DNA of 64,000 nucleotides from Actinomycetes bacterium (GTDB lineage Bacteria; Actinomycetota; Coriobacteriia; Anaerosomatales; Anaerosomataceae): positions 1-64,000 of the forward strand of contig JAJFTR010000041.1 in NCBI GenBank assembly GCA_021372825.1. Reading direction: 5' to 3'. Position numbers and translations under genes: made by a program. Below the pieces are notes generated by a model. That model did no database searches. It was given only the letters and a program-made list of their open reading frames with translations, and was not told the origin of the DNA. Below, one piece after another: positions 49,922-59,576 of this stretch; positions within the stretch are counted from its first letter, which is position 1; each line of letters begins with the position of its first letter.

Positions 49922-51250
49922 TCAGTCGCCGTTGCCGACCTTCGTCTTGGAGATCGCCGCGAGGAACTCACGGTTGGAGCCCGTCTTGCGCAGTCTGTCG
50001 ATGAGAAGCTCGATGGCAGGACCTGGTTCGAGGGCGTGCAGAACGCGGCGCAGCTTCCAGATGTAGGGAGCTTCGGCCGGGTCGAGAAGCAGCTCTTCCT
50101 TGCGCGTGCCCGAAGCGATAACGTCGATCGCGGGGAAGATCCGGCGATCCGCCAGTTTGCGGTCCAGTCTGAGCTCCATGTTGCCCGTGCCCTTGAACTC
50201 CTCGAATATGACCTCGTCCATCTTCGAACCCGTGTCGATGAGCGCAGTCGCGATGATCGTGAGACTGCCGCCGTACTCGATGTTGCGTGCAGCGCCGAAG
50301 AACTTCTTCGGCGGATAAAGCGCGGTCGAATCCACACCGCCGGAGAGAATGCGGCCCGAGGCTGGAGTCGCCAGGTTGTACGCCCGAGCCAACCGCGTGA
50401 TCGAGTCCAGCAAGATCACCACGTCATAGCCGCTCTCGACGAGGCGCTTGGCGCGCTCCATGACGAGCTCAGCCACCGCGATATGGTTCTCGCTGGGCAT
50501 ATCGAACGTCGAGGAGATGACCTCGCCTTTGATCGAGCGCTCCATGTCCGTGACTTCCTCGGGACGCTCGTCCACGAGTAGACACATGAGATATGCCTCG
50601 GGGTTGTTCGCGGCGATGGCGGCCGCGATGTCCTTCAAGATGGTCGTCTTACCGGCCTTGGGAGGCGACACGATGAGGCCACGCTGACCCTTACCGATCG
50701 GTGCGACCAGGTCGATGATGCGCGCCGTGATCTGATCGGGACGCCATTCCAGGCTGAACTTCTCGTCGGGATAGACAGGAGTGAGGTCCCGGAAGTCCTT
50801 GCGACGACGCGCTTCCTCGGGCTCCATGCCATTGACCGAGGTGACCTTGAGAAGAGCCGGGTACTTCTCGGACTCCTTGGGTGGGCGGACCTGGCCTTTG
50901 AGCATGTCGCCGCGGCGCAGGTCGTACCTGCGGATCTGTGACATCGAGCAGTAGACATCCTTGTCGCCCGGCAGGTACCCGCTCGTGCGGATGAAGCCGT
51001 ACCCCTCCGGCAGGATGTCGAGGATGCCCATGATCTCGACGAAACCCTCCGCCTTGACCTTGGCGTCGTAGACGGCCTGGACGAGCTCGTCTTTCTTGCG
51101 AACGGCCTTGACGTCGAGTTCGAGCTCGGTCGCCATCTGGCGCAGCTCGGCCATGGTCTTGGCAGCAAGCTCCTCGCGGGTGATCGAGGGCGCTACCTCC
51201 TGAGATGCGCCGCCGCCTCTGCGGCCGCGCTTACGTGGACGTGAACTCAT
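49922..51250 (-). CDS. rho: Transcription termination factor Rho
   Basis: Hexameric RNA helicase of 442 residues. A short basic N-terminus ([11 protein letters not shown]) and the Rho_N domain ([20 protein letters not shown]) are followed by the RNA-binding fold with [20 protein letters not shown], Walker [21 protein letters not shown], and the Q/R-loop regions [19 protein letters not shown] and [20 protein letters not shown]. It lacks the large N-terminal insertion of many actinobacterial Rhos. The ATG overlaps the fsa stop (ATGA), so translation is coupled. Confidence 0.97.
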
Positions 51251-51909
51251 GCGTTCTTCACTTTCTCCCAATCTGCAAGGAATGATTCGAGCCCCCGGTC
51301 GGTGAGCGGGTGCTTCACGAGGTTCTTGAGGACCGCGAACGGCACCGTCGCGATATCAGCGCCGAGCAGCGCCGCTTTCGTGACGTGGCTCGCGCTCCTG
51401 ATCGACGCAGCGATGACCTCGACCTCATGTCTGAAGTCATAGTTGGCGAGAGCGGCGACGATCTGGCCGAGCTGGTCGACACCGTCTTCCGAGATGTCGT
51501 CGAACCGGCCGACGAAAGGTGAGACATACCTGGCTCCCGCGCGGGCGGCCAGCAGTGCCTGAGGCACGGAGAAGCAGAGCGTCATGTTGACGCTGATCCC
51601 CATCGATGCGAGCACCTTGGTGGCGGCCAGGCCTTCTGGCATCGTGGGGACCTTCACCACGAGGTTCGGCGCGATCGCCGAAAGCTCTTGCGCCTCCCGA
51701 ACGATCTCGTCGCGCGCAAGACCCACTGTCTCCCCGCTCACCGGACCGTCCACGATCTCGCAGATGCGCTTAAGATGCGCATGGAAACCGGCAAGCTTCC
51801 CGCCCTCGCGGGCGTAAAGCGTCGGGTTGGTGGTGACCCCCGACAGCACTCCCCAGCTTGCCGCTTCTTCTATCTCGGCGATGTTCGCCGTGTCCAAGAA
51901 GAACTTCAT
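51247..51909 (-). CDS. fsa: Transaldolase-like fructose-6-phosphate aldolase
   Basis: A 220-residue TalC/FSA-type enzyme of the pentose-phosphate/sugar-phosphate pool. MKFFLDTANIAEIEEAASWG, GVTTNPTLYAREGG and the Schiff-base Lys in NLVVKVPTMPEGL are diagnostic; VNMTLCFSVPQALLAARAGA and YVSPFVGRFDDI follow. Whether it acts as transaldolase or as aldolase is not decided by these motifs. It lies between the 2-phosphoglycerate kinase and rho. Confidence 0.95.
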   Translation of the reverse strand: MKFFLDTANIAEIEEAASWGVLSGVTTNPTLYAREGGKLAGFHAHLKRICEIVDGPVSGETVGLARDEIVREAQELSAIAPNLVVKVPTMPEGLAATKVLASMGISVNMTLCFSVPQALLAARAGARYVSPFVGRFDDISEDGVDQLGQIVAALANYDFRHEVEVIAASIRSASHVTKAALLGADIATVPFAVLKNLVKHPLTDRGLESFLADWEKVKNA

Positions 51910-51915
51910 GTGTGC

Positions 51916-52863
51916 TTACGCTCCTTGTCCCGCCGAAGTGCTCCGCTCGTGCATGATCTTCTCGTCATCGCGGATCGCCGCGTTGACAACCAGCTCCAGT
52001 ACCTCCGCCACCGTCTTGTCCAACTGATGGCTATGAACGATGGGTGTCCCGTGCTCCGCCGCAAGATCCTCGATGTACCTGCCGAGCAGTCTGATGCTCC
52101 CGAAGTTCGCGCGATACTTCTCGAACGGCCTGGTGCCGTCCGTCTGGACCTCCCGGATGTAGAAGTGACTCCGGTGTGCTTCCTCATCATCGACCGTCAC
52201 GAGCAGTTGCACCACAGACGCATTCTTGAACTGGGAGGGCTCGATGTAACCGGGAACGACGTGCACGCCCTCCACCACAAGGCTCTCGCCCTCGAGAACC
52301 GCGCGCTCGATGAGTGACCGGATACCCGTGATGACGACAGAGGTCTGCTCCCGGAATCCGACGATCACGGGGTTGGCGCCATGAGGCACCGGGACCCGAA
52401 GCCCGCGCCATGCGTTGAACGACGATTCGTAGATCGCGGGCATGAGCTCCTTTGCAAAGATACCACGCATCACCTCTCGAATGGAATCCGTCGATACGAT
52501 CCGCGTGATTCCGAGCCGGTGAGCGATCTCGGTGGCGATGGTCGACTTGCCGACTCCCGTGGTGCCACCGATCAGGATGACGAGCGGACGCTCGAGTTTG
52601 GAAAGCTCGCGGAGCTTGAGATAGCGCTCTGCGTACTCTTCGCCCGCCTGGCGGGCGAGCACATCGACCGCCAGTTCCTGCAGTTCGCGAATGGTAAGCG
52701 CCCGCACACCCCGCTCGATCATCTCGTCTTGCAACTTCTGTGCCGCCAGATAGGCGCGGGCGGGCGAAAGACCTGTTGCCGTGAACGACTGAGCCATGAG
52801 CCCCTTGCTATAGGGAAGCCCGTGCTTCTCATCCCGGATCAGAATCGGGGGGATTGCCGGCAT
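51916..52863 (-). CDS. 2-phosphoglycerate kinase
   Basis: Phosphorylates 2-phosphoglycerate to 2,3-diphosphoglycerate with ATP. From ATG 52863 it has 315 residues: an ATP-cone-like N-terminal part (LIRDEKHGLPYSKGLMAQSF, then ALTIRELQELAVDVLAR) and a P-loop kinase domain with LIGGTTGVGKSTIATEIAHR at about 97-116, STDSIREVMR, VVEGVHVVPGYIEP and EKYRANFGSIRLL. This is the arrangement of the archaeal 2PGK. The ATG is one base behind the stop of the cDPG synthetase gene, so both are co-translated. Function is read from family and pairing. Confidence 0.9.
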   Translation of the reverse strand: MPAIPPILIRDEKHGLPYSKGLMAQSFTATGLSPARAYLAAQKLQDEMIERGVRALTIRELQELAVDVLARQAGEEYAERYLKLRELSKLERPLVILIGGTTGVGKSTIATEIAHRLGITRIVSTDSIREVMRGIFAKELMPAIYESSFNAWRGLRVPVPHGANPVIVGFREQTSVVITGIRSLIERAVLEGESLVVEGVHVVPGYIEPSQFKNASVVQLLVTVDDEEAHRSHFYIREVQTDGTRPFEKYRANFGSIRLLGRYIEDLAAEHGTPIVHSHQLDKTVAEVLELVVNAAIRDDEKIMHERSTSAGQGA

Positions 52864-52864
52864 G

Positions 52865-54202
52865 TCAGGACACCCCCGCCTCACGCGTCGCGGCTGCATG
52901 GACCACTGAGTCGAGGAGGCCGTCGAGGTCATCGCCCGCCACTGCTTGCGGCACATTGTCACAAAGCACCGTCGGCACGCCCATCTCGCGTCCGGCCATA
53001 GCGACCACCTCTATCGCAGCAGCCTTGAGTTCGGTGAGCAAGACGTCGAAGCGGCCCGCTGCCGAGGCCATGTCCTCGCGTAACCGCGTTCTGTCCGAGA
53101 GGTGCGGGCTCGACCCGACGACCGTGCACCCATGCTCGGACTCGAGGTGCGCCACGAGGATGGGTACCAGCGAGGATGGCGCCGTCGTCGCGAAGAACAC
53201 CCGCTTGCCCGCTATCGCCTCGAGCGGCGACGGCCGAAAGATGACGGCGGCGACAGGAACGCCGGGGCGGATGCGCTCGATCGCGGACTTGGCCTCGGCG
53301 ACCTGTTTCTCGGTCGCCCCGGGGGCTTCCGCGCCCGCCAGAACGACCGCATCAGCACGGCCGAGCCGGTACGGACCGAAGTACTCCTCGATGTAGGAAA
53401 GCCCCTGACCAGCTCCGATCACGAGAAGGGTGGCGTCGACCCTGACGGGCGGGATCGCCGCTCCGGAGCCTTCCACGATGACGATGTCCTTGCCGAGAGA
53501 GTCCGCAAGACGCGCTCCTTCGTGCACGTTGCTGAAGAACGTGTCCCCCGCCATCCCTCCGCCGCACCGGCGACAGCCCACGGTCGTGACTCTGCTCATC
53601 ACAGCATCTTCGTAGTTGTCTGAGGCCGCGTGCTTTCCTTGAGCCGCAAGAGCGAGGAGGTCATCTGTGGAAAGCGGGACCTCGTCTCCACGGATCAGGT
53701 CCGGGACTGCAGGACCTCCACGGCCCATCGCCAGCACCACGACGTCGACACCCTGGGACTTCACACGTCGGGCGAGGTACGCGGAGACCGCCGTCTTGCC
53801 GACACGTTTCCCCGTGCCCACGACGGCAAGCGCAGGCGTCCCAAGAGCGAGCATAGACCGCGGCGGAGTGAAGCAGAAATCAGCTCCCCGGTATTCGACC
53901 CCTGCCCCTAGAGCGATCGATGCGAGCCGGAAGCGGTCTTTCGCCGAGAGGACCGGCTCGTCTGAGAGGTCCACGAGAGCGTGAGGATGGTACTGGTCGA
54001 TCGCCATGCGAACCGACTCGTCAGCACTTTCAGCCCAAACGACCGGGAGTCCGTACACCTCGCCGTGCTCGACATCGATCTTCTCGGTGCCGCCCACAAA
54101 CGCCGCCGCAACGACATCGAACTCCACAGAAAGTGCGGAAAGCGCCGCCCTGACCACGGGCGGGTAGTGCTCGCCGTCGATGAGCGCTACCGCCGTGCTC
54201 AC
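52865..54202 (-). CDS. Cyclic 2,3-diphosphoglycerate synthetase
   Basis: Closes 2,3-diphosphoglycerate to cyclic 2,3-diphosphoglycerate using ATP, a pathway described in hyperthermophilic methanogens. 445 residues. The opening VALIDGEHYPPVVRAALSAL, the P-loop AVVGTGKRVGKTAVSAYLAR (Walker A at 129-137), MGRGGPAVPDLI and GCRRCGGGMAGDTFFSNVHE fit that family, and VEGSGAAIPPV and DAVVLAGAEAPGATEKQ follow. GTG at 54202 overlaps the phosphoesterase stop by four bases. The kinase that would make its substrate is directly downstream. Bacterial homologues exist but are little studied. Confidence 0.88.
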   Translation of the reverse strand: MSTAVALIDGEHYPPVVRAALSALSVEFDVVAAAFVGGTEKIDVEHGEVYGLPVVWAESADESVRMAIDQYHPHALVDLSDEPVLSAKDRFRLASIALGAGVEYRGADFCFTPPRSMLALGTPALAVVGTGKRVGKTAVSAYLARRVKSQGVDVVVLAMGRGGPAVPDLIRGDEVPLSTDDLLALAAQGKHAASDNYEDAVMSRVTTVGCRRCGGGMAGDTFFSNVHEGARLADSLGKDIVIVEGSGAAIPPVRVDATLLVIGAGQGLSYIEEYFGPYRLGRADAVVLAGAEAPGATEKQVAEAKSAIERIRPGVPVAAVIFRPSPLEAIAGKRVFFATTAPSSLVPILVAHLESEHGCTVVGSSPHLSDRTRLREDMASAAGRFDVLLTELKAAAIEVVAMAGREMGVPTVLCDNVPQAVAGDDLDGLLDSVVHAAATREAGVS

Positions 54203-55023
54203 TCGTCACCATCTCCTATCTCCGACACTCCAGGTGCGGCCGCTTCGCCGCTTCCTGGGCGCCAGGCGCATTGCTTGCGCGCTGGACGGGAAAAGTCCGC
54301 CACTATCTCGGGCGGCTCGAACGGATGCTTCAAAGTCACACGAACCCGAGGCTCGCGGATCTCGATGATGTTGTAGGATGCCCTGGTCTTGCCTCGAAGC
54401 CGATACGAGCAGGCCGTCCCGGCGTTCACGACGATCATGTCCTCGAGACGCCAGACGTTCGGCACATGTTTGTGGCCGCACAGTACCATGTCGCAGCCGC
54501 TGTTGGAGAGCACACGCAGCAAGTCCCCTGCATCGAACACGATGTTGCGCTCGCGACCGGTACCGGGCACCGGAAGAAGATGGTGGTGGAGAGCCACTAT
54601 CTTGAACTCGTCAGGTTCCGAGAAGCGCTCCTCTATCCAGCGATACCGCTCCCGGCCCACACGGCCCGAGTCAAGGTCAGGTTCCGACGAGTCCAGCCCG
54701 ATGATCCGCACTCCGGGCAGCAGAAGCTCGGTGGAGCGAGCGCCGAACAGCTCCTCGAAGTGCATGTCTCCGACGTTGCGTGCGTCGTGGTTACCGGGCA
54801 GCACCATGGTGTTGCCGACCTGCATCCTGGAAATGAGGTGTTTGGCCATCCGGAACTCTTGCCGAAACCCCATGTCCGTGAGATCACCCGTGATGACAAG
54901 CGCATCGGGGGCCAGCTGGTTCACCTCGTCGACCACGCGCGTCGCGAGACTCGGGATGTGATACTGCGAGCCGCAGTGCAGATCCGAGACTTGGGCGATC
55001 ACAATGGATCCTGCGTCGCTCAT
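54199..55023 (-). CDS. Calcineurin-like metallophosphoesterase
   Basis: Metal-dependent phosphohydrolase of 274 residues from ATG 55023 (GGAGG five bases upstream). The five family blocks are present: QVSDLHCGSQYH, VITGDLTDMG, VLPGNHDARN, ALHHHLLPVPGTG and CGHKHVPNVW, giving the two-metal site. It heads the run phosphoesterase-cDPG synthetase-2PGK-fsa-rho with overlaps between the first three genes. It could be a cAMP-type phosphodiesterase, or could act on the phosphate metabolite made by its partners; the latter is only context. The region 55024-55135 should hold the operon promoter. Confidence 0.9.
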   Translation of the reverse strand: MSDAGSIVIAQVSDLHCGSQYHIPSLATRVVDEVNQLAPDALVITGDLTDMGFRQEFRMAKHLISRMQVGNTMVLPGNHDARNVGDMHFEELFGARSTELLLPGVRIIGLDSSEPDLDSGRVGRERYRWIEERFSEPDEFKIVALHHHLLPVPGTGRERNIVFDAGDLLRVLSNSGCDMVLCGHKHVPNVWRLEDMIVVNAGTACSYRLRGKTRASYNIIEIREPRVRVTLKHPFEPPEIVADFSRPARKQCAWRPGSGEAAAPGVSEIGDGDE

Positions 55024-55135: not shown

Positions 55136-55930
55136 TCACTCGTCAGCAGGGTCATCGACAGAGCTCGCGTCAGGTCGAGACAGCACCGCCTCGCGTAGTA
55201 CAGCGAGTACCAGGCCAAGAACCAGGCCAAGGACCACCGCTCCTGCGACTGTGGCTCCCCTCCGGCGGACCGGGGCGATGTCGGCGGTAGCCACGTTGCC
55301 GTTGTAGAAGTACGAGGCCCTGAGCTTCCTGAGTTCTAGACGGTCCTCGAACAGACGCATGTGCATGGCCCACTGCGTCGACGCCAACTCGAGCTCGTAA
55401 GCCGCGTCCCGCTCGCTCGCGGGGGCTTCGTTGTCGACCTTCCGCACTTCGTCGAGCATGCGCTCGGTCTCCTCCACGAGCCGTTGCACCGCGAGGACCT
55501 CTGGGCCACCCATGTCGATCGCCTTGTCGCACAGCGTCCTGGCCGCGACAACGGTGACGCTAGTGGCTTTGCTCGCATCTGGAGAGCGGAACGTCACCGC
55601 GATCTCGCCCTGGGTCGGCCCGCGCGTGAAGACCTTGAGCCCCGCGCGCACCGTTTGCGCGGGGACAGCTGAGGCGCTCGCCACCACAGACAAGAACTCG
55701 TCGGAGGTGGCATGGCTGACCACGTCGTCCGGTTTCGGCAGATCCGGGTACTTGGACAGGACAGCAGTGTCGACGGCGATGACCGAGGTCCCCTCATAGA
55801 GCGGAGTCGGGTCAGCCGCAGACACGGCGAGCCCGATGGCGACGGCCGCCGCGGCAGTGACAAGCGGCAGCCACCACTCTCGCCTGACTGCGACGAGGAA
55901 CCTCGATTCAGCGTTCGTCTCGGACATCAT
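55136..55930 (-). CDS. Second Wzz-like chain-length protein
   Basis: A 264-residue paralogue of the protein at 13322: one helix near the N-terminus (WWLPLVTAAAAVAIGLAVSA), an exported helical middle, YFYNGNVATADIAPVRRRG and a C-terminal helix (GAVVLGLVLGLVLAVLREAV). It overlaps the upstream ligase gene by 23 bases. No glycosyltransferase is next to it, so this pair may act on another polymer or form an alternative size class. Confidence 0.78.
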   Translation of the reverse strand: MMSETNAESRFLVAVRREWWLPLVTAAAAVAIGLAVSAADPTPLYEGTSVIAVDTAVLSKYPDLPKPDDVVSHATSDEFLSVVASASAVPAQTVRAGLKVFTRGPTQGEIAVTFRSPDASKATSVTVVAARTLCDKAIDMGGPEVLAVQRLVEETERMLDEVRKVDNEAPASERDAAYELELASTQWAMHMRLFEDRLELRKLRASYFYNGNVATADIAPVRRRGATVAGAVVLGLVLGLVLAVLREAVLSRPDASSVDDPADE

Positions 55931-57317
55931 CGCCTTCTTGCCTCACCGCCGAGAACGCAGACAGCAGTCCAAGGAAGATCCACAGGTACTCGAAGTACAG
56001 ATAGTACTGGAAGAGCGACTCGACCACCAACGCCGTCACAGCGGCGAGTGCCGCTGTCCCCGGCGCAGGATAGCGCTGCTTTGCGAGACGCCGCCACGCC
56101 CACACGATCCCGGCGACGATCGCAAGCACGGAAAGCGCTCCGGGCACTCCCATTTCGACCCACATCGCTAAAGGAACCTGATGCGGATGGGTGATGCGCG
56201 GCAATGCGCCCGGCTTGCGATATGCCGGATACGCTAGGTCGTAAGCCCCGAGACCTGTACCACCGATTCCGAACTCAGACAGCATCTCGACGCTGGACTG
56301 CACCATGAGATAGCGCGTGGCGAGTGACCCTTCTGAGGTGGGGTCGAGCAGACCAGCGACTCGCTGGTACATTGCAGCCGGCACGAACGGCGCCACCACG
56401 AGAGTGAGCACGATGACCGCGACGATCAGTCTGGCGCGACGCTGTCGTGGTGCGGTGAGGAGTACGACGACAAGCCCGACCGCGAGCCCGATGAGCGCCG
56501 AACGGGACGATGTCACAGCGATGCCGCCGAGCGCTACGAGAGCTCCAGCACCCCACCATACAGCCTGTCGCATGCGCGTGGCCCGGACCATGAACACAAG
56601 TGCGACGAGCACTGCAGCGGAGAGGTACCCGGCGAGGAAGTTCGGGTCAAGGAAGAACGCCGATGGCCTCACGAGAACGACCAAGGACGAGAAGCCCTGT
56701 GTCGTGAGACGTCCGATCCCGAGTGCGGGATCGAAGTACTGCAGAGCCGCCACACCTGCCATCACGCACGCGACCGCCACAAGCTCGGCGAGTAGAGCGC
56801 GACCTCGGCGGGCGTCGTTGGCGCGCCATGCGATGAGCATCGCCAAGAGCCACAGAACCAACAGACGGCCTGTCCCGCTGAGTGTGGAGGAAGGTGCGAG
56901 CGACCCGGCAAGCGAGATCGCGCCAGCGAGCCACGGCATCGCGAGTGCAGCCACGAGAGGAGTCGGTCTGGGCAAGGCTCGGCGCCCATCCCGCACGATG
57001 CGGGCAGACCACCCCAGTATCGTCGAGGCGAGCAGCACATGAGCCGCCGTGAAAGGAGCGGCTGGAGGGCCGAGCGTCGCGAAGTCGAAGAGTGGGATCG
57101 TGGCGACGAGAAGCGCAAGACCAACGTCGGTGGAGATCAGGCCGAGAGCGAACAGAGTCACCGTGAGAGTGCCGTAGAGCGTCGCATGTGTGACCGGCCA
57201 TTGCATCCATTCGAGTGCCACCACCGCCGACACCGAACCGCACAGCAGCGCGCACGCGATCCAGACCCCTGTCCTAAGACCGGATGTTCCCGAGAGTGTG
57301 TCGTGGCCTGCATCCAC
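55908..57317 (-). CDS. Second O-antigen ligase / Wzy-family membrane protein
   Basis: A 469-residue polytopic protein with about twelve helices and the same loop as its paralogue: GIGGTGLGAYDLAYPAYRKP, then THPHQVPLAMWVEMGVPGAL. Its C-terminal SLFQYYLYFEYLWIFLGLLS is nearly the same as in the gene at 14065. It starts 12 bases behind the thrB stop, so it may be transcribed with hom-thrB. Role as at 14065: joining lipid-linked glycans outside the membrane; which polymer is unknown. Confidence 0.86.
   Translation of the reverse strand: MDAGHDTLSGTSGLRTGVWIACALLCGSVSAVVALEWMQWPVTHATLYGTLTVTLFALGLISTDVGLALLVATIPLFDFATLGPPAAPFTAAHVLLASTILGWSARIVRDGRRALPRPTPLVAALAMPWLAGAISLAGSLAPSSTLSGTGRLLVLWLLAMLIAWRANDARRGRALLAELVAVACVMAGVAALQYFDPALGIGRLTTQGFSSLVVLVRPSAFFLDPNFLAGYLSAAVLVALVFMVRATRMRQAVWWGAGALVALGGIAVTSSRSALIGLAVGLVVVLLTAPRQRRARLIVAVIVLTLVVAPFVPAAMYQRVAGLLDPTSEGSLATRYLMVQSSVEMLSEFGIGGTGLGAYDLAYPAYRKPGALPRITHPHQVPLAMWVEMGVPGALSVLAIVAGIVWAWRRLAKQRYPAPGTAALAAVTALVVESLFQYYLYFEYLWIFLGLLSAFSAVRQEGDDVRDER
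55980..56020. repeat. 41-base copy 2 shared by the two O-antigen-ligase genes
   Basis: Identical to 14131-14171 and in the same position of the coding frame (minus strand). The identity stops abruptly on both sides. Confidence 0.85.
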
Positions 57318-57329
57318 GAACTTCGCCGC

Positions 57330-58250
57330 CTACTCCACCCGCACGCCACACCGGTCCACTGGTACCGGTATCGCCACGCGCCCCGGCGCATCACTGTTCG
57401 CTTCGAAAGCAGCCTGCACCCGGTGCGCCCTGTCGAGCGCCGCTTGCTCGTCGTCCGCGCTCACGAGCCCGATCACCGTCGGCCCGGCGCCCGAGAGCAC
57501 CGCGGCGTCGGCTCCTGCATCCATGAGAGCGGCTTTCACGCGCGGTACGTCCGGATACAGGCGCTCACGGTACGCCTCGTGGATCTTGTCTGCGCCTCCC
57601 GCGCGGATCAGGTCGGCTCTGCCCAGCGCGATGCCTGCGGCAAGCAAGCCGGCGCGGCCCGCCCCGAACGCGGCATCCGCGTGCGGCACACTCGCGGGAA
57701 GCACACGCCGTGCCTCGGCGGTGGCGACAGCGGCCTCGCTCACGACCGCGACTGCGGCTAGGCCGCCGCCGGGTTCGATACGCTCGGCACGGGGTATCGC
57801 GCCCTCGTACCAACAAACAGTGAACCCTCCGAGTAATGCGGCAGCGACATTGTCAGGGTGGCCTTCCAGCTCGACGGCGAGCTGGAACAGGCGGGTGAGA
57901 CCAAGAGGGCCCCCCAGAAGCTCATTGGCCAACACAAGACCGCCGACAATCGCTGCTGATGACGAACCGAGCCCTCTGCCGACAGGGATACCGTTCTCGC
58001 ATCGCACGCGAGCGGCGCCGCGATAGCCCGTCTCGGCGAATGCGCGCTGCATCGCACGCACGACCTGGTTGCGCTCGTCTTCGAGAAGCTCGCCCTCCCC
58101 CTCGCCTTTGACCTCGACCTCCCACACCGGCGATCGTTCGGCCTCGAATCGATCATACAAAGCGACGGCCAGGCCGAAAGCGTCATAACCCGATCCCAGA
58201 TTGGCCGAGGACGCGGGTACGACGACGCGCGCACTCACACGGACCGTCAT
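57330..58250 (-). CDS. thrB: Homoserine kinase
   Basis: Phosphorylates homoserine on the way to threonine. 306 residues of the GHMP kinase family: VVVPASSANLGSGYDAFGLA, the ATP loop IPVGRGLGSSSAAIVGGLVL, and VLSGAGPTVIGLVSADDEQA near the end. It overlaps hom by four bases. Threonine synthase is not in the window. Confidence 0.95.
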   Translation of the reverse strand: MTVRVSARVVVPASSANLGSGYDAFGLAVALYDRFEAERSPVWEVEVKGEGEGELLEDERNQVVRAMQRAFAETGYRGAARVRCENGIPVGRGLGSSSAAIVGGLVLANELLGGPLGLTRLFQLAVELEGHPDNVAAALLGGFTVCWYEGAIPRAERIEPGGGLAAVAVVSEAAVATAEARRVLPASVPHADAAFGAGRAGLLAAGIALGRADLIRAGGADKIHEAYRERLYPDVPRVKAALMDAGADAAVLSGAGPTVIGLVSADDEQAALDRAHRVQAAFEANSDAPGRVAIPVPVDRCGVRVE

Positions 58251-59536
58251 AGCTCCTCGACCCGGATCACGGAGGCCACTTCTCGCACCACGTCCAGCAG
58301 AGCTATCGCATCAAGGGCCGCTCGCACGTCGCGCTCGGCTGCAGCATGGGTGACCCACACGATCTCCGCTCCTCCGTGCTCGTCCGTCCGCGTCTGCAGA
58401 ACAGAGGCGAGCGACACATCGTTCTCGCCGAAGATCTGGGCCACCTTGGCAAGTACTCCCGGGCGGTCCTCGACGAGCAAGCGCACGTAGTACTGGGTGA
58501 CAAGATCGCCTATCTCGCGAACGGGAAGCTCCTCCCGGCACGTGCAGCCGACGATGTTGAGACATCCGCTCTGGATGTGGCGTGCGACCTCGATGACATC
58601 GCCGACGATCGCGCTCGCAGCCGGCAGGGAACCGGCTCCCTCGCCGAAGAACATCGTCTCCCCCACCGCGTCGCCGACGACGTATATGGCGTTGTAGACC
58701 GCATCGACCTTGGCAAGCGGGTGCCCGGACCTGATCATCGTGGGGTGCACGCGAACATCGACTCCACCTTCGACGCGCCGTGCGATCGCCATGAGCTTGA
58801 TGACATAGCCCATCTCCGTCGCATACGCGATGTCGACCGGAGTGATGGAGCGGATCCCCTCGGCAGGCACGTCACCTAGAGTGACGCGCGAGTTGAAGGC
58901 GATGGAGGCCAGGATGGCGATCTTGGCGGCGGCGTCCAGTCCGTCAACGTCAGCGCTGGGGTCAGCCTCGGCGTAACCGCGGGCCTGCGCTTCCGTGAGC
59001 GCTGTCGCGTAGTCAAGACCGTCTCTTGTCATCTGCGTGAGCATGAAGTTCGTCGTTCCATTCACGATTCCGTACACCGCGGTGATCTCGTTGCTCACAA
59101 GCGAGTGCTTGAGCGGGCCGATGATAGGGATGCCGCCTCCCACGCTCGCTTCGAACATGAGGTCGACGCCGTGAGCCTCCGCCGCATCCATGACCTCCTG
59201 CCCGTGGCTCGCCATCAGCGCCTTGTTGGCCGTCACCACGCTCTTGCCTGCCTCAAGGGCTGCGAGTACGACGCCGCGCGCGGCGCCGGTGCCGCCGATG
59301 AGTTCGATAACGACATCGATATCCGCATCCGCAATGATCTCCGCCGCATCGGTCGTGCACGCCTCGGGCGGTAAGCCGAGGCGCGCGAAGCGCGATGCGT
59401 CACGATCGGCGTAACGAGCGAGCTCGATATCGACACCCGCACGCGTCGCGAAATCCTCGCGATGCCGACGCAGGATCTCGACGACGCCGCTGCCGACGGT
59501 GCCCAGACCGATGAGACCGACTCTTACAGTGCGCAT
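58247..59536 (-). CDS. hom: Homoserine dehydrogenase with ACT domain
   Basis: Reduces aspartate semialdehyde to homoserine. ATG at 59536 with GGAGG eight bases upstream starts MRTVRVGLIGLGTVGSGVVE. The NAD(P) site, TANKALMASHGQEVMDAAEA, FEASVGGGIPIIGPLKHSLV, NGTTNFMLTQM and YAEADPSADVDGLDAAAKIA are intact; a C-terminal ACT domain (about 350-429, VEDRPGVLAKVAQIFGENDV) suggests feedback by threonine or a related amino acid. 429 residues is normal. Confidence 0.97.
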   Translation of the reverse strand: MRTVRVGLIGLGTVGSGVVEILRRHREDFATRAGVDIELARYADRDASRFARLGLPPEACTTDAAEIIADADIDVVIELIGGTGAARGVVLAALEAGKSVVTANKALMASHGQEVMDAAEAHGVDLMFEASVGGGIPIIGPLKHSLVSNEITAVYGIVNGTTNFMLTQMTRDGLDYATALTEAQARGYAEADPSADVDGLDAAAKIAILASIAFNSRVTLGDVPAEGIRSITPVDIAYATEMGYVIKLMAIARRVEGGVDVRVHPTMIRSGHPLAKVDAVYNAIYVVGDAVGETMFFGEGAGSLPAASAIVGDVIEVARHIQSGCLNIVGCTCREELPVREIGDLVTQYYVRLLVEDRPGVLAKVAQIFGENDVSLASVLQTRTDEHGGAEIVWVTHAAAERDVRAALDAIALLDVVREVASVIRVEEL

Positions 59537-59570
59537 GGTGTTGTCCTCCGCGTGACGGCCTGCCCGGTCC

Positions 59571-59576
59571 ATTGTA
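59571..59576 (-). promoter_or_regulatory. -10 element upstream of hom
   Basis: Minus-strand TACAAT, 35 bases before the hom start in the 90-base gap 59537-59626. No convincing -35 is seen at 16-18 bases, so the element is tentative. Confidence 0.35.

Follow-up and report, generated by a model that had tools for sequence, protein, structure and literature searches.

Adjacent kinase, synthetase and phosphoesterase genes form a proposed cyclic 2,3-diphosphoglycerate turnover module in deep-branching Actinomycetota

Cyclic 2,3-diphosphoglycerate (cDPG) has been described as found exclusively in hyperthermophilic methanogens (PMC10690619). The cDPG synthetase (cDPGS) of Methanothermus fervidus has been solved (PDB 8oru and 8ork), and its reported contacts are E45, K145 and R146 for 2,3-diphosphoglycerate (2,3-DPG), T150 and D208 for Mg, and E305, T353 and E404 for ADP (PMC10690619). 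As to breakdown, a membrane-bound cDPG hydrolase activity that K+ and phosphate inhibit has been reported from Methanothermobacter thermautotrophicus, together with a proposed storage role (PMC1224877); the literature searched, which takes in few subscription papers, names no gene for that activity. On the bacterial side, a 2-phosphoglycerate kinase (2PGK) gene of Deinococcus/Thermus has been noted as archaeal-like (PMC1274311), and in the literature searched neither an enzyme activity nor the metabolite has been measured in a bacterium.

The window analysed here is a stretch of 64,000 nucleotides at the start of contig JAJFTR010000041.1, from a genome of the class Coriobacteriia, order Anaerosomatales, of 1.94 Mb that is 99.5 % complete. 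An initial annotation, made from the sequence, had described a 2PGK and a cDPGS gene one base apart, both with intact Walker A loops, in an operon with a phosphoesterase. The spacing is exact, 2PGK beginning 1 base after the cDPGS stop (TGA-C-ATG), and both loops are present as claimed. The phosphoesterase, a calcineurin-like metallophosphoesterase (MPE), is also there, with an overlap of 4 bases (GTGA) between its stop and the cDPGS start, and its status as a conserved third member, developed below, goes beyond that annotation. With names assigned by inspection of the translations, the gene order on the minus strand is hom, thrB, two surface-polysaccharide-like membrane genes, MPE, cDPGS, 2PGK, tal, rho, rpmE, thyX, yqhQ, prfA and prmC (Table 1). 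The Wzz-like chain-length and O-antigen-ligase-like genes between thrB and MPE (55136-57317) are seen in the close relatives of the window only.

Table 1. Coordinates of the three genes and their conserved context in the window
Feature	Coordinates	Strand	Remarks
Homoserine kinase (thrB) and homoserine dehydrogenase (hom)	57330..59572	(-)	Conserved upstream context
Calcineurin-like metallophosphoesterase (MPE)	54199..55023	(-)	274 aa; Pfam Metallophos E 5e-17; proposed cDPG (or 2,3-DPG) hydrolase
Cyclic 2,3-diphosphoglycerate synthetase (cDPGS)	52865..54202	(-)	GTG start, 445 aa; P-loop GTGKRVGKT, residues 129-137
2-phosphoglycerate kinase (2PGK)	51916..52863	(-)	ATG start, 315 aa; ATP-cone and P-loop kinase, P-loop GGTTGVGKST
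Transaldolase-like gene (tal)	51247..51909	(-)	Conserved downstream neighbour, outside module; follows 2PGK across the phylum and is kept at loci lacking the three genes
Transcription terminator Rho	49922..51271	(-)	Conserved operon context

cDPGS and 2PGK are genuine genes and no chance reading frames; compared with relatives, dN (0.13-0.25) is far below dS (0.93-1.45). MPE is likewise a genuine gene. Judged by the named relatives closest to its cDPGS in the contig scan, which are MAGs of Coriobacteriia and Anaerosomatales, the genome most likely belongs to the latter order.

Residues 4-432 of the window cDPGS align to residues 6-442 of the M. fervidus enzyme (PDB 8oru, also 8ork; E 6.3e-122), and a second solved cDPGS (PDB 9sxb) matches the protein over its full length (E 1.7e-104). 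This full-length similarity takes in the unusual N-terminal domain. We mapped the published ligand residues (PMC10690619) onto the window protein and found E45, K46, K145, R146, K149, T150, D208, E305, T353, E404 and K406 of M. fervidus to be identical, corresponding to E40, K41, K132, R133, K136, T137, D195, E292, T340, E391 and K393 in the window numbering. All except E305 are invariant across bacteria and archaea in an alignment of 11 sequences, comprising nine actinobacterial proteins and the two solved enzymes. The published P335 aligns to a Phe in the window protein while an invariant Pro stands two positions on, at 337, and the mismatch seems to be a numbering slip in the published account (PMC10690619). 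The full-length match to 8oru and 8ork and the conserved ligand residues rule out a chance P-loop match. These comparisons support a full-length cDPG synthetase, predicted to convert 2,3-DPG and ATP to cDPG. Matching over its full length and alike in P-loop and in the ligands of 2,3-DPG, Mg and ADP, the window enzyme differs from that of M. fervidus in being bacterial and 46 % identical. Its gene is coupled directly to a kinase gene, whereas no kinase adjoins cDPGS in the nine methanogen loci searched.

The kinase matches its family over the full length (NCBIfam PRK12337, 5e-94; PRK04220, 4e-92), with a Pfam ATP-cone at 9e-7, and its structure model is confident (pLDDT 92.6) with an adenylate-kinase-like core. 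Its scores lie under the curated NCBIfam cut-offs, at 308.7 bits against 343 for PRK04220 and 315.5 against 603 for PRK12337, which describes a longer protein. We therefore treat it as a 2PGK homologue whose function is backed by linkage and not as a certified equivalog. The assignment as 2PGK is supported, and the enzyme is predicted to phosphorylate 2-phosphoglycerate. With archaeal 2PGK (PRK04220) it has in common the ATP-cone and P-loop kinase architecture and 26 invariant positions. The Walker A Lys is present in the window protein (GVGKST), whereas all seven methanogen copies have Thr (GVGTSS, within GGASGVGTSS); Lys is found in all 156 readable bacterial copies. The Deinococcus/Thermus 2PGK (COG2074; compare PRK12337) is likewise bacterial, and PRK12337 matches the window protein over its kinase and ATP-cone part, but the extra N-terminal part of this 492-position model is missing from the window 2PGK. 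Both enzyme names given in the initial annotation are supported, by the full-length matches of the two proteins and by the conserved ligand residues.

We surveyed the pair in a sample of 347 Actinomycetota genomes. We found cDPGS in 187 genomes and 2PGK in 185, with both present in 182, one alone in 5 and 3 respectively, and neither in 157 (Fisher 2e-88, shared ancestry ignored). The five genomes with cDPGS only are drafts of 81-92 % completeness, and in one of the three with 2PGK only (G463) the kinase lies at a contig end; G278 and G492 are among the few genomes with 2PGK and no cDPGS match. Within Anaerosomatales both enzymes occur in 65 of the 69 sampled genomes, the same four lacking both. 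By comparison, none of 181 sampled genomes from the other orders of the class has either at a convincing level, matches there reaching 1e-3 to 1e-5. The cDPGS-2PGK pair is therefore an old trait of deep-branching Actinomycetota. Among them its presence is the norm, and the window is no special case. The remark that a bacterial pair is little explored holds for the literature searched, whereas the gene pair itself is common in these lineages. In one family (f35; three loci) cDPGS and MPE are adjacent before rho, and a diverged 2PGK sought beside cDPGS was not found between cDPGS and rho. Genomes of this family hold a more diverged 2PGK (E of about 1e-33 to 1e-53), which is probably located elsewhere in them.

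A homologue of MPE lies directly upstream of cDPGS at 45 of 49 named loci of Anaerosomatales or close kin, and at 26 of 29 Actinomycetota loci outside the order, some loci in these counts deriving from the same genomes. Across the phylum sample, 181 of the 187 cDPGS genomes carry a member of the MPE subfamily (E <= 1e-20), as against 4 of the 160 others; both genes occur in 181 genomes, cDPGS alone in 6, MPE alone in 4 and neither in 156 (Fisher 3e-85, shared ancestry ignored). For at least one of the four genomes with MPE and no cDPGS (G463), a break of the contig at the kinase accounts for the pattern. In the six cDPGS genomes where MPE was not detected, another hydrolase or reversal of cDPGS may serve. 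At a few loci (L086, L118 and L095/L157) other, unrelated genes take the place of MPE; cDPGS and 2PGK are present in L086, L118 and L095.

The genomes without the pair are informative at the operon locus, which is where joint absence was judged. Of the pair-less genomes within the order, G099 retains hom-thrB followed by tal-rho, G080 retains hom followed by tal-rho, and G034 has an O-antigen-type gene upstream of its retained tal-rho. G041, from another order of Coriobacteriia, reads hom-thrB-tal-rho. In each case MPE, cDPGS and 2PGK are all absent from the place they would occupy. That all three go missing together from an operon that is otherwise retained argues for a single functional unit, as opposed to genes merely carried along in the operon. 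MPE is a conserved third member beside cDPGS and 2PGK, and it has not been tied to cDPG before in the literature searched.

The MPE structure model (pLDDT 86.9) comes closest in fold to the glycerophosphodiesterase GpdQ and the class III cyclic nucleotide phosphodiesterase Rv0805. The calcineurin-like fold and metal motifs are common to all three, at 17-23 % identity in the structural match. MPE carries the metal-binding motifs DxH, GDxxx, GNHD, H and GHxH, and D14, H16, D47, N78, H79, H147, H184 and H186 are invariant in 41 sequences. Beyond the metal ligands, these 41 bacterial and archaeal proteins share D111-S112-x-x-P115-D116...G120..G123, H146HH....P153.TGRE158 with a nearly invariant R159, GHKHVP..W191 with a nearly invariant K185, and R210. 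In short, the signature common to bacteria and methanogens is D-S-S-x-P-D..G..G / HHH..P.P.TGRERN, and Rv0805 lacks the TGRERN and GHKHVP elements in the aligned stretch. The additional conserved arginines would be in keeping with a substrate as compact and highly charged as cDPG. Members of the calcineurin-like superfamily such as LpxH cleave pyrophosphates, which makes the chemistry of cDPG hydrolysis plausible for MPE. Matches of MPE to antiphage models (NCBIfam, PADLOC) are weak and partial, with bits far below cut-off as is typical of a large superfamily, and we reject an antiphage role.

Methanogens provide a second view of MPE. In the contig scan, a clear MPE orthologue is present in eight of nine archaeal cDPGS genomes, one of the nine being a Thorarchaeota MAG of doubtful label, with E values of 1e-40 to 1e-63 and 42-50 % identity over the best stretches. 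In these genomes the remaining members of the superfamily reach no better than 1e-5. Neither MPE nor 2PGK is linked to cDPGS in methanogens. Using a joined cDPGS-MPE query on 80 sampled genomes of the methanogen phylum, we found both genes in about 66, cDPGS only in 6, MPE only in 5 and neither in 3, where "both" rests in four genomes on the number of matches among those listed. Since nearly every sampled methanogen genome has both genes, co-occurrence there offers little contrast. The informative point is that the MPE orthologue is present, unlinked, in a second domain. Several methanogens (G578-G584; L252, L254, L260 and L261) have two MPE copies falling in two well-separated clades, and one of the copies may have a different substrate.

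The cDPGS tree unites the methanogens in a clade (100/100), and a topology with Actinomycetota forming one side of a branch is not rejected (AU p 0.33). The MPE tree recovers both groups, though they are less well supported. The exchange between bacterium and archaeon is old, whichever its direction. For the window genes, a recent import from an archaeon is ruled out by their shared operon place across the phylum and a base composition like that of their neighbours.

From the gene identities, the conserved sites, and the way the three genes are inherited and lost together, we infer that the three genes (55023-51916) would work as one cDPG turnover module, and we regard this reading as probable. 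In this module, 2PGK would convert 2-phosphoglycerate to 2,3-DPG, and cDPGS would close 2,3-DPG to the cyclic pyrophosphate cDPG at the cost of one ATP. Cultured Anaerosomatales are described as relying on a cofactor-independent phosphoglycerate mutase (PMC9686372), so 2PGK probably does not serve to supply a mutase cofactor. MPE would then either reopen the cDPG ring to 2,3-DPG or take phosphate off 2,3-DPG, so that phosphoglycerate and phosphate flow back into central metabolism. It is very probable that cDPG is made. That MPE is the cDPG hydrolase, a proposal drawn from its co-inheritance, is about as likely as not. The reaction proposed for MPE is the one reported for M. thermautotrophicus, and orthologues of the window MPE occur in methanogens of that phylum. 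That activity is membrane-bound. Inspection by eye, in contrast, shows no obvious membrane segment in the window MPE or its model, where peripheral binding is possible.

Alternatively, MPE may act on another substrate, such as cyclic nucleotides or glycerophosphodiesters, and be a mere passenger of an old operon that also holds unrelated housekeeping genes, as its structural neighbours GpdQ and Rv0805 might lead one to expect. A passenger would not be expected to disappear along with the pair from an operon that keeps hom, thrB, tal and rho, to be almost absent from genomes that lack cDPGS, or to accompany cDPGS in methanogens where the genes are unlinked. We consider this explanation unlikely.

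The likely role of the turnover module is to hold phosphate and carbon in soluble form, and to supply a counter-anion or protectant, in anaerobes that grow slowly; nothing points specifically to heat protection. A rival reading takes cDPG to serve as a thermoprotectant here as in Methanothermus, the pair being the mark of a host that is thermophilic or derived from a thermophile. The initial annotation, which described cDPG of Methanothermus fervidus as both thermoprotectant and phosphate store, had suggested that the pair may point to such a host. The best-studied cDPG producers are indeed thermophiles in which cDPG increases with growth temperature (PMC10690619), and one cultured member of the order, Parvivirga hydrogeniphila, has its optimum at 47-60 C (PMC9686372). 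However, Anaerosoma tenue of the same order grows best at 30 C (PMC9686372). The pair is carried by nearly all genomes sampled across an order with this range of temperatures. Moreover, cDPGS is found in Methanobrevibacter, an ordinarily mesophilic genus. A thermophilic meaning of the pair is therefore improbable, and this part of the earlier reading is not supported.

It is also conceivable that bacterial cDPGS homologues catalyse a different ATP-dependent cyclisation or phosphorylation, given the modest identity to the M. fervidus enzyme and the fact that no bacterial enzyme has been tested in the literature searched. With every reported ligand residue conserved except one apparently misnumbered Pro, and with the gene for the substrate-making enzyme adjoining cDPGS in nearly all bacterial cases, we find this very improbable. 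Finally, 2,3-DPG is the known primer of cofactor-dependent phosphoglycerate mutase (dPGAM), and a few genomes do hold 2PGK with no cDPGS match, but that 2PGK mainly supplies this primer with cDPGS as a side branch is scarcely credible when the kinase is almost never found without cDPGS and cultured Anaerosomatales use the cofactor-independent mutase.

Both enzymes of the turnover module are of known kinds. What is unusual is that a compound described as exclusive to hyperthermophilic methanogens is predicted, from gene content, for half of the Actinomycetota sample. Should the module function as predicted, a large and mostly uncultured section of the phylum would be making cDPG. Many members of this section come from the subsurface or from sediment, and the view of phosphate and carbon storage in such habitats would then change. 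We hypothesize, tentatively and with slightly less than balanced confidence, that the TGRERN MPE subfamily is the cDPG breakdown gene in both bacteria and methanogens, and that cDPG, far from being peculiar to hyperthermophilic methanogens, is a widespread phosphate or carbon store of deep-branching Actinomycetota. MPE is a concrete candidate for the gene of cDPG hydrolysis in bacteria and archaea alike, one that could be tested cheaply, and the bacterial enzymes may give non-thermophilic catalysts for cDPG production.

A few loci carry unexpected taxonomic labels. MAGs labelled Aeromicrobium, Slackia and Thorarchaeota (L144, L147, L158 and L151) carry a cDPGS resembling those of Anaerosomatales, other Actinomycetota or an Acetothermia MAG, and their labels or bins are probably wrong. 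Separately, a Gemmatimonadetes MAG (L156) has 2PGK upstream of cDPGS and no MPE orthologue, and an Acetothermia MAG (L164) has cDPGS only; together these two suggest that the cDPGS family reaches other bacterial phyla.
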